Origin: an uncultured Clostridia bacterium
GTDB lineage: Bacteria > Bacillota > Clostridia > Christensenellales > Borkfalkiaceae
Reading direction: 5' to 3'
Assembly: GCA_947629515.1 (NCBI GenBank)
Contig: CANRDY010000007.1
Coordinates: forward strand, 1 to 53,296
DNA length: 53,296 bases
In this document: positions 33,667-52,864 of the stretch, piece after piece
Position numbering within the stretch: the stretch's first letter is position 1
Layout: each line of letters opens with the position of its first letter
Position numbers and translations under genes: made by a program
Notes under the pieces: model-generated
What the model was told of the DNA's origin: nothing
The model's database searches: none
The model's input: the letters and a program-made list of their open reading frames with translations, nothing else

Positions 33667-33701
33667 GCGGCGGGGAGCGATTGTAAATCGCTCCCCGCCG
33701 C
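33667..33701 (+). terminator. Terminator of the DUF1540 gene
   Basis: GCGGCGGGGAGCGATT and its complement form a 16-pair perfect stem with a three-base loop. No T run follows on the plus strand (CAAGCGTT). On the minus strand the stem is followed by TTAAAAATTTTTTA. Confidence 0.7.
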
Positions 33702-33850
33702 AAGCGTTCCGCTTGACCTTGTGTCTTAACGGCGGAGAAGTGGGAAGAACGTGCAAGCTGTTCAACGCGAGGCGGCGGGGGTTTGCCGAGCAAACCCCCG
33801 CCGCAATTTTAAATATTATCGAAGCTTATTAAGGCACTGTCATTTCGCGC
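33702..33850 (+). repeat. Fragments of R4 and R1 around a second hairpin
   Basis: 33700-33770 carries the R4 pieces AAGCGTTCCGCTTGACC and GTGTCTTAAC. 33772-33804 is a 15-pair hairpin (GCGGCGGGGGTTTGC). 33805-33847 is the first third of R1 (ATTATCGAAGCTTATTAAGG to TCATTTCGCG), cut off into a GC stem. Confidence 0.75.
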
Positions 33851-33887: not shown

Positions 33888-33916
33888 TTGACAATTTGCT
33901 TGCGCCGTGGTATATT
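33888..33916 (+). promoter_or_regulatory. Promoter of the leader RNA and leucine-rich lipoprotein gene
   Basis: TTGACA at 33888-33893 and TATATT at 33911-33916 are 17 bases apart. The predicted start, about 33922, falls at the first strand of the conserved outer helix of the leader. Confidence 0.88.
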
Positions 33917-33919
33917 TTA

Positions 33920-34079
33920 GTTACCACATTTCACAACTGCATAAATCTCGAAAGATTACACAATCTTGGCATTGTGTATCTCTTTTGAATTTAATTTTTT
34001 CTTTCGAGATTAGGTTTGTGAGGTGTGGTAACCGTAAGAGATACCGTGCGGTGTGCTCTTTCGGGAGCACACTTTTTTT
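33920..34079 (+). ncRNA. Structured leader RNA with pseudoknot and terminator, copy 1
   Basis: The helices seen are: GTTACCACA 33920-33928 with TGTGGTAAC 34024-34032; TCACAA 33931-33936 with TTGTGA 34016-34021; AATCTCGAAAGA 33944-33955 with TCTTTCGAGATT 34000-34011; and an apical hairpin ACACAAT 33958-33964 with ATTGTGT 33971-33977. GTATCTCT 33976-33983, in the inner loop, pairs with AGAGATAC 34037-34044 outside the outer helix, making a pseudoknot. A terminator (34051-34072 plus seven T) follows, and GTGCGGT 34046-34052 could instead pair with ACCGCAC 34082-34088. The same plan occurs at 49099-49366. It is probably a cis-acting RNA controlling termination; the ligand is unknown. Confidence 0.78.
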
Positions 34080-34103
34080 ATACCGCACAAAGGAGAAAAT
34101 TTT

Positions 34104-36455
34104 ATGAAAAAGAGATTTTTGGTAATTTTACTCGCCCTTGCGGCAACACTCTGCCTTGCTTTCGCCCTTTCGGCATGCTCCCCCGCCCCGAACGATAACA
34201 CGGGCAATACTACCGAACAAAGCGGCAATTCGGGCAACAGCGGCAACAACAGCGGAAGCTCGGGCAGTACGGGCAACACTAACACCCCCGAGGGCGGAGG
34301 TTCGGAAAGCACGACAGAACCCGAAACGCCCGATACGGGCGACGAGGGCGACGCGGGAAGCACTAATCCTCCCGATAGTGATAATACAGATGATATGGGC
34401 GAAACTGATAGTGATAACGACGGACATGTATGGAGCGAGTGGATAGTAATTTCTCCGGCTACATGTTCAAAGCAGGGTTTGGAAGGTCGCATATGCACAA
34501 GTGAAAAACATAGTGAACATTACGAGACCCGCGAAACGCAAATTGACCCCACGGCGCACGATTTCGGTGAATTGATAACAACGCCCGCAACTTGCACAAC
34601 AAAGGGAGTTGAAGCGCACTATCATTGTACTTGCGGAAAATTTTTTAATAAAGATAAAATCGAAATTTTGGAACAACAATTATTGACATTACCAGTTGAC
34701 AATAATGGACACATTTTGAATAAAGGCGAAAGCACTTGCGCAAATTGCGGTACGACTTTAACCGTCAATCTAAAATATTCGCTGTTAAGTGATAACACAT
34801 ATTCGGTCAGTAAAGGTTCGGCAACCGATAGTAACATAATAATACCCGCAATATACGACGGGAAGCCCGTAACCGCTATCGGTAATTTTGCGTTCTCGAG
34901 TTGCAGTAGTCTTAAAAGCATAGTCATACCTAACAGCGTAACTTCTATCGATAAAAATGCGTTCTGGGATTGCACAAACCTTACAAGCATAACTATATCG
35001 GACAGCGTTACTTCTATCGGCGATTATGCGTTCAGTAGTTGTAGAAGCCTTGAAAGTATAGCCATACCCGACGGAGTTACTTCTATCGGCGATGAAGCGT
35101 TCCATAATTGCTATAGTCTTAAAAGCGTAAACTTCGGCAACGACAGTAAACTTGAAATCATCGGCGATTATGCGTTCGAGTATTGCACAAGCCTTATAAG
35201 CATAAATTTCGGCGATAATAGTAAACTTGAAACTATCGGTGATATGGCGTTCTATGATTGCACAAGTCTTACAAGCATAACCATACCCGACAGTGTAACG
35301 TCTATCGGCGGTAGTGCGTTCTTGGGTTGCACAAGCCTTGAACGCATTAATGTCGGAGAAAATAACACAGCTTATTCAAGCGAAAGCGGAATTTTGTACA
35401 ATAAGTCTAAAACTCAGTTCATACATATTCCTACAGCAGTTAAAGGAACGATAACTATACCCGACGGCATAACTTCTATCGGCAGTAGCGCATTCAGCGA
35501 AAATAAAAAAATTGAAACAGTAATTATTGGCACTACCAGCAAACTTGAGACTATCGGCGAAAGTGCGTTCTTGGATTGCACAAGCCTTAAAAGCATAACT
35601 ATACCCAAAAGTGTAACTTCTATCGGTAAAAATGCGTTCTATAATTGCAATAACATTAATAAACTTTACATAACCGATTTGGTGGCGTGGTGCAATATTG
35701 ATTTTGGCAATGTTACCGCTAACCCTTTGGGGAAAAACCTTTATTTGAATTATGATCTTATAACCGAGTTGCATATTCCGCAAGAAGTTAAAGAAATTAA
35801 AAATTATGTGTTTGCGGGTTATAATGGTACAAGTATAATCATACCCGACGGCGTAACTTCTATTGGCGCGGGTGCGTTTAGTGATTGCGCAAATCTTATT
35901 AGTATAACTATCCCTAAGAGCGTAACTTCTATCGGCGCGGGTGCATTCAATAGTTGCTACGAACTTAAATATGTGTATTTTGAAAATAACAGCAAACTCG
36001 AAACTATCGGCGATAAGGCGTTCTATCACTCAGTAATTATAAATATAAGCATACCTGATAGTGTCACATCTATTGGCGAAAGTGCGTTCGAGAATTGCTA
36101 TTACCTTGCCAGCATGCGGTTTGGTGATAACAGCAAACTTGAAACTATCGGCAATGAAGCGTTCTATATGTGCTCTCGCCTTAACAATATAACTATACCC
36201 GACAGCGTTACTTCTATAGGCAATCGGGCGTTCGCGAGGTGCTCCATACTTGCAAGCATAACTATACCAAAAAATGTAACCTATATAGGCGCTGATGCGT
36301 TCTATGGTTGCATAGATCTTTCATCCGTTACATTCGCTAATAAAAATGGTTGGAAGGTTGGTAATAGCATTGATGTAAATGTTGGCATCTCCTCAGAAAA
36401 TGCGAAGATGTTGAAAGATACTTATCGCAGTTCTTATTGGAAGCGCGAGGGGTGA
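34104..36455 (+). CDS. BspA-like leucine-rich repeat surface lipoprotein
   Basis: The 783-residue protein has a lipoprotein signal peptide (MKKRFLVILLALAATLCLAF, lipobox LSAC with the lipidated Cys at about 24). A Gly/Ser/Asn/Thr/Glu-rich linker runs to about residue 110. Two cysteine-paired modules follow (WIVISPATCSKQGLEGRICT; PATCTTKGVEAHYHCTCGK). Then come about 20 LRR_5/BspA repeats of the form SITIPDSVTSIGDYAFSSC. Such repeats form a right-handed solenoid used for binding host or matrix proteins. It is anchored only by the N-terminal lipid. AAGGAG precedes ATG 34104. Expression is presumably set by the leader RNA and terminator at 33920-34079. Confidence 0.9.
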   Translation: MKKRFLVILLALAATLCLAFALSACSPAPNDNTGNTTEQSGNSGNSGNNSGSSGSTGNTNTPEGGGSESTTEPETPDTGDEGDAGSTNPPDSDNTDDMGETDSDNDGHVWSEWIVISPATCSKQGLEGRICTSEKHSEHYETRETQIDPTAHDFGELITTPATCTTKGVEAHYHCTCGKFFNKDKIEILEQQLLTLPVDNNGHILNKGESTCANCGTTLTVNLKYSLLSDNTYSVSKGSATDSNIIIPAIYDGKPVTAIGNFAFSSCSSLKSIVIPNSVTSIDKNAFWDCTNLTSITISDSVTSIGDYAFSSCRSLESIAIPDGVTSIGDEAFHNCYSLKSVNFGNDSKLEIIGDYAFEYCTSLISINFGDNSKLETIGDMAFYDCTSLTSITIPDSVTSIGGSAFLGCTSLERINVGENNTAYSSESGILYNKSKTQFIHIPTAVKGTITIPDGITSIGSSAFSENKKIETVIIGTTSKLETIGESAFLDCTSLKSITIPKSVTSIGKNAFYNCNNINKLYITDLVAWCNIDFGNVTANPLGKNLYLNYDLITELHIPQEVKEIKNYVFAGYNGTSIIIPDGVTSIGAGAFSDCANLISITIPKSVTSIGAGAFNSCYELKYVYFENNSKLETIGDKAFYHSVIINISIPDSVTSIGESAFENCYYLASMRFGDNSKLETIGNEAFYMCSRLNNITIPDSVTSIGNRAFARCSILASITIPKNVTYIGADAFYGCIDLSSVTFANKNGWKVGNSIDVNVGISSENAKMLKDTYRSSYWKREG

Positions 36456-48820: not shown

Positions 48821-48986
48821 CCCGCCAATTCGCTCCCCTTCACAGAAATAATTTTTTAACAATTCGCTCCCCTTCATTTATGAGGGGGAGCTGTCCGCTC
48901 CGCGGACTGAGGGGGTGTGTTTTAAATAATAATAACGTAGTACATTATGGCACTTTTTGCGCGCGGGCGTATCAACGCCCGCGCGC
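48821..48986 (+). repeat. R3, R1 fragment and GC hairpin
   Basis: R3 (48821-48922) has a doubled CAATTCGCTCCCCTTCA and then GAGGGGGAGCTGTCCGC to GCGGACTGAGGGGGTGTG. R1 is present only as AATAACGTAGTACATTATGG. The hairpin GCGCGCGGGCGT with its complement is at 48959-48986. Nothing further is recognised up to the promoter at 49066. Confidence 0.8.
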
Positions 48987-49065: not shown

Positions 49066-49094
49066 TTGACATTTATTAACAAATGGAGTATAGT
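49066..49094 (+). promoter_or_regulatory. Promoter of the second leader RNA and surface protein gene
   Basis: TTGACA at 49066-49071 and TATAGT at 49089-49094 are 17 bases apart. The start near 49101 falls at the conserved TTACCACA strand, exactly as at 33888-33922. Confidence 0.87.
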
Positions 49095-49098
49095 AAAT

Positions 49099-49366
49099 TT
49101 ACCACATAACATACAATTGAATATAGAGTGCGGTATTTTTATGCTCTTTTTTCGGTAACGAGACGGAAAAGGAGTGTTCCTATACCAATTTTTTGGCGTA
49201 ACTTTTTTTGAAAATTAACACGTAGATAGGCGAGTTGGCATTGCGTATCTCTACAATATCTATGTGTTAACTTTAATAAAAAAGTCGTACTCTGAATTGT
49301 ATGTGGTGTGGTAACCTTTTAGAGATACCATGCGGCGTGTCTTTAAAAGGCACGCCTTATTTTTTT
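49099..49366 (+). ncRNA. Structured leader RNA with pseudoknot and terminator, copy 2
   Basis: The outer helix TTACCACA 49099-49106 / TGTGGTAA 49307-49314 is identical to copy 1. The next helix, ACATACAATT 49109-49118 / AATTGTATGT 49295-49304, and AGAGTGCG 49125-49132 / CGTACTCT 49286-49293 have different sequence but the same positions. The inner arm is TTAACACGTAGATA 49215-49228 / TATCTATGTGTTAA 49257-49270. The loop block TTGGCATTGCGTATCTC (49235-49251) differs from copy 1 by one base. GTATCTCTA 49245-49253 pairs with TAGAGATAC 49320-49328 as a pseudoknot. The terminator is 49334-49356 followed by TTATTTTTTT. An extra arm lies at 49133-49186. Confidence 0.78.
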
Positions 49367-49378
49367 ATGGAGAAGAGT

Positions 49379-52300
49379 ATGCACAGGAAAAAAGTTACAA
49401 CTTATGCGCTTTTATCGCTTGTCATGTGCCTCGTTATAAGTATAACGACGGCGTTTTCTTTATTATGGCAACCTTTGGAAACCGTCCACGCCTATAGCTC
49501 CGACCAGGCTGTTTCGGTCAATGAAATATATAAAGGTGAGGATGAACCTTTTGTCGGTGAAAATCTTAACGCTATTTTTTCTTTGCTTATCGGCGGCGCA
49601 GGTGATTATAATGCGGTAAAATCAGCCGTTGACAGCGGTTCGCTTGCTTCAAACTCGGTTGCAAATAAAAATATTATAATTGAATTTGGCGGAATGAAAT
49701 GGCTTGCCGTTTACATTTCAAAAGCCGACGACAGTCATAAAAACGAAATAGATACCGCACCTACGGGTGAGGGTAAAGGTATAGCAAATAATGGCGATAT
49801 AGTTTTAACTCTTTGGCTTGCATATGCGCCAAACGACGACGAGCATAAAGGGCTGTGGAATAATGGCAGATACCCCGATAACGGCTCGTATCCGTTGAAT
49901 CTGTACGGCACAAGTTATATGCGTTCGCAGGTGTTGAACAACGGCGGCGATTATTGGAAGAGCTTAGAATCGCTTGAAAGCGGCAGTCAAAGCAAAGATA
50001 ATATATTCGCCGCGTTCACAATGGGTGAGAACGGGAAGCAGGATATAACCGACTATCTTGTTGCCCCTCGTTATATAGCCTGGCAATACAACCAAAGCGC
50101 AAAAGCTCAAAATTTTGGAATAAGCTACGATTTAAATAACGACGCATGGGGAACAGAGACAAAGAGTAATTTCTACGATGATGGCAGTGGAAATTATTAC
50201 TATCACGATAAAGACAAATACACTGCATGGAAAGACGATTTATTATGGTTGCCTTCATTAGCCGAAACGGGTGCAGGGGTTGGCAGTAATTTGGGAATTT
50301 CGGGCATGTGGAAAACGACCGCCGCACAACGCAGCAGTACCCCGCGGGCTTTAACGCGTTCTGCCGTTACGGGTGAATATCACACTGCATTTGATTTGGA
50401 TAAAGACGGTAAAACCAATTATATGTGGGTAAACGAAGAGCAAGTTGTTCGCCCCGCGCTTCACTTGAACCTTACAAAAGCTTCACAAGCGGCTTCATAT
50501 CAAAAACCCACGGGTGACCAACTTGCAAAAACCGTGCAATATAACGGAACCGCACAAGAATGGGAGTTGCCCTCCATTATCGGGGCGACCTACAATGCCG
50601 TCGGCGACAGTACCGATTGGTGGAACGCCGCAGACCATAAAATTACTGCAACAAACGCGGGCGTATATAAGGTTACCGTAAATCCGCCCTCGTCGGGGTG
50701 GAGAGACGGCACGAGGGATGCGGTCACATTTACAATGACTATAAATTCCATTGACTACTCCGGTACGGCTTCGGTGGAGGCAAACGGCGATCTTGTATAC
50801 GACGGCAATGGAAAGACGGCGTCGCTTACAAATACATATAGCGGCGCGGACGGCACAACGCCCACGGGCACAATTTATTATGAAGGCGTTTTGCCTACAC
50901 AATATACCAAGAGCGCAACCGCGCCCAAAAACGCGGGTACGTATAAGACATGGGCGGAGTTTACAACGACTTCGAAAAACTACAACGCTCCCGCAGAAAC
51001 GGGAAAAGTTGATTTCACGATTACCCCCGCCGACATAAAGGACGACATAGATCAGGCGGGCAAGTTCGCCCTTAACCACAGTTATATATATCATTCGGAT
51101 TTTCAGAAGAACCCGATAAAGCTGAAGTTGCCCGAAAGCGGCGAAGCGGAGTTCCCGCTCTCTCTAAAAGGCAGTGACAGCTGGAACGACGTTAAGATCT
51201 ATTACTATGTCGCAACGCACAAGGCGGGCGAACACTCCGCGTGGGGCAATATTGAAACAAAGCTCGCGGACGTAAAGGCGGGAACGCCGATAGACGGCGA
51301 CAAGCCCATAACGTGGAAAGAATACACCGCTGGCGACCCCGAACTCAATGTTTCGGCGGCTCTCGGGTACTGCGTGTTCTATAAGGTAGAAGCGGGAAGC
51401 AACTACAACACGCTGTACGGGTATTTCTCGGTGCACATTTACGACGAGGAGCTGGATATAACGCTCGTCGAGGGCGCGGAGGACAGCGGGCTCGTGTTCG
51501 AAAGCAAGGAATACGGCGAAGTCGCGCACAGCGAAGATGAGTTGCGCTCGCGCATTTTGGCGCAGATAGCCACCATTAAATCGAAGCCCACCGAGCAGGA
51601 CGGCGATCCCGTTGCGGGCGAGGACAGAACGACCGAGTTCAAAGACGGCGACAACGCGCAGTACTTCGACTTTTACTTTAAGCCCGTCGGCAAGAGCGAG
51701 AAAATCTACGTTGGCGAAAACGTGCGGTTGCATGCGGGAACGTACGAGATTTGGGTCGAATACATAAAGGACAAGGACGTTGGCGACGACGATAAACACA
51801 TAACGTTCAAGTGGTATAACTCGAAGGGCGAGGAGTACCGTCCCAAATTCACGGTTCTGCCGAGGAAGATCAACGTGGAGCTTACCGTGAACGGCGGGGG
51901 AACATACAAACAAACGCCCGCGGATAAAATCGTAATAGGCACGCCCACAAGGAGCGGCGCGGGCAATTGGTACGGCGAGGCGAGCGCGCCGCAGAACGGG
52001 TTGCTTGAATTCCTCAAAATTACGTACACGTACACGAAGAAGAACGGCGGATATTCGGGCGAATTGAGCGCGGATATGCCCGCGGGCGATTACAGCATTA
52101 CCGCCGCGAGCGCGAACGGAGATTATGATGTGACGTTCACCTTTGCCGAGGGGAAAGACACCTACACGGTTGCAAAGGCAACGCCGAGCGTTACGCCGCA
52201 GTTCACCCACCCCGAGCACTTGTACACGAGCGGCAGTTTGCCCGCGCTCTCCTACGCGAGCGCGGACGGCGTCGAGGGAACGATCGCATGGGATCAGTAT

Positions 52301-52864
52301 ACCCTTGAAGCGGGTAGAAAGAGCTACGGCTGGACGTTCACCCCCGACGACGAGGACAATTATAACAAGGTTACGGGTACGAGCGAGTTTTCGGTTGAGT
52401 CGGTTGAACTGAAGAGCATTTCGGCGCAGTTCGAGCAAGGCGAAAACGTGATATATACGACCGATACCCTCGACAGTTTGAAACAATATTTAACGGTTAA
52501 AGGCACGAACAACGACGGCTCGGACTATGGCGCGATAACCGAATACAGTCTGACGGGCAGTCTGAACGCGGGCAGTTCTTCGATAATCGTATCGTACGGC
52601 GGGTTCACGACGACATTCACCGTGACCGTAACGACGCCGACCACGCCCGAACCCGACAATCCCCCGACGACCGACCCCGAACCCGACGATCCCTCGGGCG
52701 GAACGGGCGATTCGGGCAATGAAGGCTCGGGAGACAACGGTTCTGCAAATAATAACGGCTCGCTCGACGGCGGCGACGTTGGTCCGCTTGTGGTAGTCGT
52801 CGGCGTTGAAGCCGTGATGCTTGTCGCATTGATCGCGGCGGTAGCCGTGTTGAGGAAGAGGTGA
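49379..52864 (+). CDS. Large cell-surface protein with DUF6273-like domain and C-terminal anchor
   Basis: The 1161-residue protein has an N-terminal signal (YALLSLVMCLVISITTAF). A DUF6273-like module (about 80-385) runs from IIIEFGGMKWLAVYI to EEQVVRPALHLNL. Several repeat modules of the MBG/Ig-like kind follow (TVQYNGTAQEWELP; NAGVYKVTVNPP; KNAGTYKTWAEF; LHAGTYEIWVEY). A bacterial Ig-like domain near 1015-1090, a Pro/Asp/Gly/Ser linker and a C-terminal helix (VVVVGVEAVMLVALIAAVAV) with LRKR complete it. There is no LPXTG, so anchoring is by the helix. The start at 49379 has GGAG at proper spacing; ATG 49367 is possible. The last 1.8 kb is more GC-rich than the first, suggesting a mosaic origin. 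Confidence 0.85.
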   Translation: MHRKKVTTYALLSLVMCLVISITTAFSLLWQPLETVHAYSSDQAVSVNEIYKGEDEPFVGENLNAIFSLLIGGAGDYNAVKSAVDSGSLASNSVANKNIIIEFGGMKWLAVYISKADDSHKNEIDTAPTGEGKGIANNGDIVLTLWLAYAPNDDEHKGLWNNGRYPDNGSYPLNLYGTSYMRSQVLNNGGDYWKSLESLESGSQSKDNIFAAFTMGENGKQDITDYLVAPRYIAWQYNQSAKAQNFGISYDLNNDAWGTETKSNFYDDGSGNYYYHDKDKYTAWKDDLLWLPSLAETGAGVGSNLGISGMWKTTAAQRSSTPRALTRSAVTGEYHTAFDLDKDGKTNYMWVNEEQVVRPALHLNLTKASQAASYQKPTGDQLAKTVQYNGTAQEWELPSIIGATYNAVGDSTDWWNAADHKITATNAGVYKVTVNPPSSGWRDGTRDAVTFTMTINSIDYSGTASVEANGDLVYDGNGKTASLTNTYSGADGTTPTGTIYYEGVLPTQYTKSATAPKNAGTYKTWAEFTTTSKNYNAPAETGKVDFTITPADIKDDIDQAGKFALNHSYIYHSDFQKNPIKLKLPESGEAEFPLSLKGSDSWNDVKIYYYVATHKAGEHSAWGNIETKLADVKAGTPIDGDKPITWKEYTAGDPELNVSAALGYCVFYKVEAGSNYNTLYGYFSVHIYDEELDITLVEGAEDSGLVFESKEYGEVAHSEDELRSRILAQIATIKSKPTEQDGDPVAGEDRTTEFKDGDNAQYFDFYFKPVGKSEKIYVGENVRLHAGTYEIWVEYIKDKDVGDDDKHITFKWYNSKGEEYRPKFTVLPRKINVELTVNGGGTYKQTPADKIVIGTPTRSGAGNWYGEASAPQNGLLEFLKITYTYTKKNGGYSGELSADMPAGDYSITAASANGDYDVTFTFAEGKDTYTVAKATPSVTPQFTHPEHLYTSGSLPALSYASADGVEGTIAWDQYTLEAGRKSYGWTFTPDDEDNYNKVTGTSEFSVESVELKSISAQFEQGENVIYTTDTLDSLKQYLTVKGTNNDGSDYGAITEYSLTGSLNAGSSSIIVSYGGFTTTFTVTVTTPTTPEPDNPPTTDPEPDDPSGGTGDSGNEGSGDNGSANNNGSLDGGDVGPLVVVVGVEAVMLVALIAAVAVLRKR

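Follow-up and report, generated by a model that had tools for sequence, protein, structure and literature searches.

A candidate riboswitch-like transcription attenuator with a pseudoknot-antiterminator exchange, widespread in Clostridia

The leader RNA at positions 33920-34103 of the window (the whole 53,296-nt stretch of DNA from an uncultured Clostridia bacterium analysed here), on the + strand upstream of a gene for a 783-aa BspA-type LRR lipoprotein, can on balance be regarded as a widespread cis-acting transcription attenuator that is built like a riboswitch and probably senses a small molecule. Judging from the sequences, attenuation through an exchange between a pseudoknot and an antiterminator is very probable and, once this is granted, a small-molecule ligand is the likely input. 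It is a new class of riboswitch-like transcription attenuator, itself a known kind of element, and is called new because neither an Rfam 15 match nor a description in the literature searched was found. A first-pass annotation had proposed an undescribed riboswitch-like leader with the helix GTGCGGT/ACCGCAC as its termination switch; the leader stands and that switch does not, and both the antiterminator and the number of further copies were absent from it.

All features of the leader lie on the + strand, in the order promoter, P1, P2/P3 arm, loop-tail pseudoknot, terminator and gene. A sigma-70-type promoter was recognised by sequence at 33888-33916 (-35 element TTGACA at 33888-33893, -10 element TATATT at 33911-33916) and, since it sits just upstream of P1, the RNA would start at P1. 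The aptamer-like domain (33920-34032), supported by the fold and by P1 covariation, comprises P1 (33920-33936/34016-34032; fold and covariation), P2 (33944-33955/34000-34011; fold) and P3 (33957-33964/33971-33978; fold) with the loop CTTGGC (33965-33970). Folded to its minimum free energy (MFE), the segment 33920-34080 forms the terminator and helices of 17, 2, 12 and 8 pairs, at -61.7 kcal/mol (z -7.2; 0 of 200 shuffles equally stable). The nested helices of 9, 6, 12 and 7 pairs annotated earlier are this same fold cut slightly differently, and the promoter, terminator and other features named there are all present in the window sequence. A Shine-Dalgarno sequence, AAAGGAG (34089-34095), precedes the putatively regulated gene (34104-36455), whose product matched LRR_5 (E 3.7e-124) and carries a lipobox, LSAC, by eye. 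Perfect GC-rich inverted repeats at 33667-33701, 33772-33804 and 48959-48986 (arms of 16, 15 and 12 nt, loops of 3-4 nt) lie upstream of this leader and of a second one in the window, and similar GCCGC-rich palindromes precede other leaders of the same genome (L003, L006 and L007; by eye); they may be terminators of the preceding genes or a repeat family.

The predicted expression platform consists of two mutually exclusive pairings that would decide termination. In one, the strand GTATCTCTT in the arm (33976-33984) pairs perfectly over 9 pairs with AAGAGATAC (34036-34044) in the linker and tail (34032-34046), which recovers the pseudoknot of 8 pairs between inner loop and tail seen in the first-pass annotation (33976-33983/34037-34044). 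In the other, the same switching strand provides the 5' arm of an antiterminator (34032-34045) and pairs with 34050-34064, that is, with the 5' arm and loop of the intrinsic terminator (34051-34079; stem 34051-34059/34064-34072, U-run 34073-34079; from the fold). This antiterminator (duplex -16.8 kcal/mol) forms in the MFE of transcripts ending at 34064 or 34070, and the full-length transcript folds into the terminator. Because both use one tail strand, pseudoknot and antiterminator exclude each other. Pairing of the terminator 3' strand CACACC with the P1 3' strand GGTGTG was also considered as an alternative and was dropped, since the antiterminator made with the 5' arm covaries and is available at an earlier point.

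For comparison we used 250 distinct leaders (order set, n=168; class set, n=82), leaving out the antisense or partial matches L213:2018-2140 and L208:145-243 as well as exact duplicate leaders; the common layout is found across them. Three alignments were counted: A6, an unfitted MAFFT alignment of 20 compact leaders, chosen because MAFFT misaligned the arms when long and short leaders were combined, and A7 (88 distinct rows) and A8 (94 distinct rows), both fitted to a model in which P1, P2, P3 and the terminator are included and the pseudoknot and the antiterminator are not. Alignment A2, in which L011 and L014 are misaligned, was not counted. All swap and shuffle tests ignore kinship among leaders.

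Across the 250 leaders, the antiterminator duplex of each tail with its own terminator arm scored -14.94 kcal/mol against -9.81 for swapped partners (0/2000 permutations), and 0/2000 was also obtained separately in the order set and in the class set, again ignoring kinship; an earlier run on 168 leaders had given -16.83 against -11.19 kcal/mol. On A7, 83.2% of antiterminator cells were paired, with 85 double-changed cells against 31.1 in shuffles and a covariation score of 0.382 against 0.212 (0/500; slid versions at most 0.129), while the number of pairs with double changes was not in excess (7 against 6.5 shuffled; 272/500). On A6, 92.1% were paired and the score was 0.323 against 0.189 (0/500); the count of double-changed pairs, equalled by 22 of 500 shuffles, was less clear than the score. 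At least 10 tail/terminator-arm pairs could be formed in 234/250 own combinations, 397/750 swapped and 237/750 shuffled ones, short strands often pairing by chance. This strong covariation argues for the exchange of the tail 34032-34045 between the loop (predicted OFF) and the terminator arm 34050-34064 (predicted ON) as the better-supported switch.

The structured 5' domain is likewise backed by compensatory changes, for the pseudoknot among distant relatives only. P1 scored -10.59 kcal/mol with its own partner and -5.77 with swapped ones over the 250 leaders (0/2000 permutations as good, kinship ignored). In A6, 90.0% of the cells of P1, P3 and the pseudoknot combined were paired, and their score was 0.318, compared with 0.142 in shuffles (0/500; slid at most 0.098), with double-sided changes at 5 of 8 P1 pairs, 3 of 4 P3 pairs and none in the pseudoknot; the resulting count of 8 double-changed pairs was reached by 31/500 shuffles and is less clear than the score. 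None of the outcomes that the first-pass annotation had named as speaking against it was observed: no Rfam family was hit, homologues with compensatory changes are numerous, and the position of the promoter points to a start at P1. The pseudoknot itself was favoured by the swap test (-15.97 own against -11.99 kcal/mol swapped over 250 leaders; 0/2000 permutations, kinship ignored). Near the window it is almost invariant: in A8, 94.1% of cells pair, the covariation score was no better than shuffles (0.061 against 0.060; 168/500 as high), and 3 double-changed cells compare with 0.6 in shuffles and with up to 11 in slid versions. Among the distant relatives of A7, 18 double-changed cells were counted against 7.8 shuffled (1/500), with a score of 0.167 against 0.145 (4/500; slid at most 0.050); sliding by +1 gave 22 double-changed cells, yet only 30% of cells then pair. 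The versions observed include GTATCTC/GAGATAC, GCGTCTC/GAGACGC (L204), TGCTTCCC/GGGAAGCA (L216 and L219), TGCATTCCC/GGGAATTGC (L212) and, by eye at class level, AAAAATGCAT.GCTC / GAGC.TATGCATTTTT. P1 and pseudoknot sequences thus differ among distant relatives and the shape is kept. Unpaired positions are also conserved, with GG[CT]A in the core of 207/250 leaders (about 51 in shuffles) and AATA in the first junction of 163/250 (about 86 in shuffles), the latter motif being looser than its appearance. Long variants (L003, L005 at window positions 49133-49214, L010, L013, L017 and L018) have an additional GGTATTTTTATG-type insert between P2 and the upper arm, and the P2 flanking this insert covaries by eye (GAGTGC/GTACTC, CCGTAC/GTGCGG).

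A second leader at 49099 had been annotated as sharing the plan of the first, and this was borne out, with P1, P2, upper arm and terminator differing in sequence. It spans 49099-49328 on the + strand (R1 covariance-model match 49180-49362, 57.7 bits) behind a promoter recognised by sequence at 49066-49094 (-35 at 49066-49071, -10 at 49089-49094). Its P1 (49099-49118/49295-49314), P2 (49126-49132/49286-49292), upper arm (49215-49228/49257-49270), loop TTGGCAT (49235-49241) and pseudoknot (49245-49253/49320-49328) are followed by an antiterminator and terminator region (49315-49366, + strand), with 14 antiterminator pairs (49315-49328/49337-49350) and a terminator (49334-49341/49349-49356, U-rich run 49357-49366; centroid fold and sequence). 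The fold of 49097-49370 has a z of -8.7. Here the antiterminator is the MFE structure even at full length and the centroid shows the terminator, so the balance between the two would be close. The gene behind it (49379-52864, + strand) encodes a protein of 1161 aa that has no Pfam match and whose N-terminus, by eye, includes a hydrophobic stretch.

The complementarity of GTGCGGT (34046-34052) and ACCGCAC (34082-34088), a distal helix enclosing the terminator (34046-34088, + strand; sequence and swap test), was confirmed. In the order set it persists through changes in the paired strands (-9.01 with own and -6.96 with swapped partners; 0/2000); in the class set the signal was weak (-6.42 and -6.04; 46/2000). 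The role of termination switch proposed for it was rejected: the ACCGCAC strand is transcribed after the U-run, so the helix closes only in RNA that has passed this run and cannot decide termination. We retain it as a feature of the read-through RNA, in which alone it would act, possibly through an effect on the shape of the stretch leading up to the Shine-Dalgarno sequence.

To count copies we used two covariance models, R1, built from alignment A4 (6 sequences), and R2, built from 20 compact leaders. In the leader's own genome, a gapped exact pattern occurred 7 times and 0 times in the reversed control, and R1 gave 9 matches, one of them weak and antisense; on these grounds the leader is not a product of chance, which the first-pass annotation had already thought unlikely. 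R2 added one copy on contig 12 (L335), of a second, GGTA-loop subtype, with a terminator that is imperfect by eye. The covariance-model search of clostridial genomes suggested in that annotation yielded many further homologues. All genome samples were searched under the stricter filter settings of Infernal, which makes the counts lower bounds. R1 (E ≤ 0.01) found the leader in at least 33/61 genomes of the genus sample. With R2 at E ≤ 1e-3, it was found in at least 136/201 genomes and 16/18 genera of the family sample (up to 13 matches per genome), at least 67/248 genomes and 31/115 genera of the order sample, and at least 69/291 genomes and 44/180 genera of the class sample, 64 of these 69 lying outside the own order. 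For the phylum sample the stricter limit of E ≤ 1e-4 was set; apart from the leader's own genome, R2 matched 0/298 genomes, so that this sample acts as a control for specificity at E ≤ 1e-4. When GTDB contigs were scanned with a sequence pattern, 67 stretches came up whose record titles were all Clostridia, Eubacteriales, Firmicutes, Bacillota or Candidatus Coproplasma (class Clostridia); R1 was run on 54 of these stretches and matched 54/54.

Tandem leaders about 35-105 nt apart were found at 12 loci (L159, L160, L172, L177, L182, L191, L212, L123, L254, L258, L270 and L305), and in L266 and L079 two leaders stand some 300 nt from each other, the interval in L266 including an ORF. In the tandems L160, L177 and L123, an ACCCT/AGGG-type pseudoknot in the first copy is followed in the second by one of the GTATCTC/GAGATAC type or near it; such differing pseudoknots might correspond to two signals. 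Among IMG/VR contigs, 10 carried one short motif and 3 another, and R2 confirmed leaders on 7 of these 13 (L318, L320, L321, L322, L325, L326 and L327), with an identical leader in L320 and L321; the viral label of the contigs is that of the collection. Their downstream genes are unlike the lipoproteins of host copies, and the ORFs beside the leader in L320, L321, L325 and L326 look phage-like by eye. Searching the GenBank phage collection by blastn turned up 2 records of faecal phages, both unannotated, and searching the plasmid collection turned up none.

Placement relative to promoters and genes is consistent with control in cis. A promoter score of at least 9 of 12 was obtained upstream of 204/249 leaders, against 15.8% of base-shuffled stretches, and in 177 of those 204 the first base of the -10 hexamer lies 8 nt upstream of the model start. 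We counted ORFs of at least 50 aa with a preceding ribosome site, leaving out leaders with less than 400 nt downstream: such an ORF lay within 60 nt downstream of 187/244 leaders, against 3 of the 95 leaders with sufficient sequence in an upstream-divergent control, and within 200 nt of 217/244, against 26/95, leaving 27/244 leaders without one within 200 nt. In the own genome, six copies precede BspA-type LRR proteins (window 34104, L001, L002, L006, L007 and L018), L003 precedes a zinc-ribbon membrane protein and one copy the 1161-aa protein at 49379. Downstream protein sequences were truncated to 380 and 500 aa, and some share a genome or are related. Among 141 of the 144 proteins of the family and order set (A9; L029, L091 and the second L212 frame left out), we found LRR_5 in 37, LRR_8 in 24, Zn_Ribbon_1 in 15, DZR in 15 and List_Bact_rpt in 11, and more rarely collagen, APH-type kinase, DUF6273 and SHOCT (3 each); a simple regular expression for a lipobox-like motif matched 71/144. 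Among 69 of the 73 class-set proteins (A13; L254:1302-1451, L270:1701-2180, L275 and L306 left out), LRR_5 (12), LRR_8 (10), Cu_amine_oxidN1 (6), MazE (3), SLH, CHAP and M23 (1 each) were among the 25 families listed of 38 in all, and the set includes small proteins without a family. The downstream gene set, made up mainly of BspA-type LRR lipoproteins, zinc-ribbon and other surface proteins, is surface-biased and otherwise mixed. Related-looking proteins of 75-78 aa (MNIKVELLKNYISDF-type) follow the class-level leaders L253, L295, L304, L316 and, more distantly, L260; other small look-alikes follow L239/L242/L272 and L240/L266/L267/L293.

The best reading of this RNA is a small-molecule riboswitch with putative ligand binding. 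The RNA would start at P1 and its 5' domain would fold through P1, P2 and P3. A ligand would contact the conserved unpaired parts, namely the AATA-type junction motif, the loop GGCA or GGTA and the linker ACA or GCA, and would hold the pseudoknot closed, upon which the terminator would form and the gene would be OFF; with the ligand absent, the tail would capture the terminator arm and RNA polymerase would read through. Several copies per genome and tandem pairs are familiar in riboswitch usage, which the up to 13 copies per genome and the 12 tandem loci resemble. Most metabolite riboswitches regulate genes that form a metabolic pathway. The genes found here (LRR_5 37, Zn_Ribbon_1 15 and List_Bact_rpt 11 of 141) do not, so the same attenuator could have a pseudoknotted domain whose partner is an RNA-binding protein or a further RNA. 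Such a sensor would suit surface, zinc-ribbon and some phage-side genes that share no pathway, and also a constant shape with varying P1 and pseudoknot sequences; the conserved unpaired GG[CT]A loop (207/250) fits a binding pocket equally well, however, and we consider this alternative rather unlikely.

The remaining explanations dispense with a sensor in cis, with novelty or with function. Since folds of growing transcripts form the antiterminator before the terminator, the leader might work as a kinetic attenuator, free of ligand, that sets a fixed or growth-dependent level of read-through; this is improbable in that a fixed terminator would presumably have no use for a loop, junction and pseudoknot conserved class-wide. 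Distinctly improbable, too, is a terminated RNA of about 150 nt as the actual product, acting in trans with read-through as a leak: the folds are very stable and for 27/244 leaders the next 200 nt contain no ORF that qualifies, but an RNA acting in trans would need neither the coupling to ORFs (187/244 against 3/95) nor the covarying antiterminator. That the RNA is an unrecognised member of a known Rfam class (SAM, c-di-GMP-I/II, preQ1, T-box and others) is very improbable. The first-pass annotation could place it in no known class, and the Rfam 15 scan agrees, as nowhere in the window did a family reach its gathering score. With permissive thresholds, scans of both window leaders, of the loci of 20 relatives and of 19 loci at class level yielded no credible hit at the leader; the matches there were sub-threshold only, for example MIR5512 (E 0.0043; 26.4 bits, gathering 139) and, in L244, Phe_leader (E 0.12; 32.9 bits, gathering 55). 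The scan did work, as an ordinary SAM riboswitch was found upstream of the class leader in L154 (1255-1341; 51.9 bits, gathering 44.4); a near-threshold STnc490 match in L132 (2293-2400; 54.6, gathering 56) lies away from the leader. Finally, multiple copies per genome and seven leaders on viral-classed contigs could suggest a repeat or mobile element without regulatory role, which is hardly credible given that the copies diverge and nonetheless keep their pairing, promoter, terminator and gene spacing.

In the literature searched, including PMC8040213, PMC11109978 and PMC8632094, we found no description of this RNA, and no paper combined Christensenellales and riboswitch. PMC8040213 reports thousands of candidates, so an earlier unnamed listing among them is possible. 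As for candidate ligands, of the 33 genus genomes in which R1 found a leader, 17 have a GGDEF match and 16 have none, some genomes being incomplete; those without it include genomes more than 90% complete with 5-8 leaders (G104, G126, G130, G139, G147, G157 and G166). GGDEF was also present in 11 of the 28 genus genomes without an R1 leader, in at least one of which (G082) R2 found a leader. As 16/33 leader-bearing genomes lack the match, c-di-GMP is not generally required and was rejected as the general ligand. The DAC domain, present in 57/61 genomes, is near-universal and does not discriminate for c-di-AMP (ydaO).

We see about an even chance that the small-molecule riboswitch proposed here is a Clostridia-wide new class, also present on some phages, in which one common signal, possibly an undiscovered signalling molecule, is sensed by the pseudoknotted aptamer and switches a large regulon of surface, zinc-ribbon and phage genes by moving one tail strand between pseudoknot and antiterminator. 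To our knowledge, it would be unusual for a riboswitch-like class to occur in roughly one in four genomes of the class sample (69/291), to reach 13 copies in a single genome and still to have no match in Rfam 15. Because the leader precedes mostly uncharacterised surface proteins, its ligand would name a signal used by gut Clostridia and perhaps by some of their phages, and the antiterminator would offer a simple read-out for ligand searches.

Several known systems are similar in part. Riboswitches of the c-di-GMP-I/II classes control surface and motility genes in Clostridia and occur in many copies per genome; the leader shares the copy number and the surface-protein genes, and differs in having no Rfam match and in occurring in the 16/33 genus genomes without a GGDEF match. 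The T-box is a long leader with an antiterminator/terminator exchange, as here, but no Rfam match links the two, and the likeness of GGTGTGGTAACC to a T-box sequence is due to chance and not conserved, since the P1 3' strand and the linker vary among relatives. EAR and put are processive antitermination RNAs and, like this leader, structured 5' RNAs that let the polymerase pass a terminator; here, with no Rfam match to them, one adjacent terminator and a covarying antiterminator would be enough to account for control. SAM-I is a transcription-attenuating OFF riboswitch with a long-range pseudoknot, and riboswitches of this kind share with the leader an aptamer-like domain, an antiterminator/terminator exchange and several copies per genome, including tandem ones. 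In contrast to them, the leader has no covariance-model match, its tail 3' of P1 pairs with a strand of the upper arm, and the genes under this class encode mostly surface proteins.
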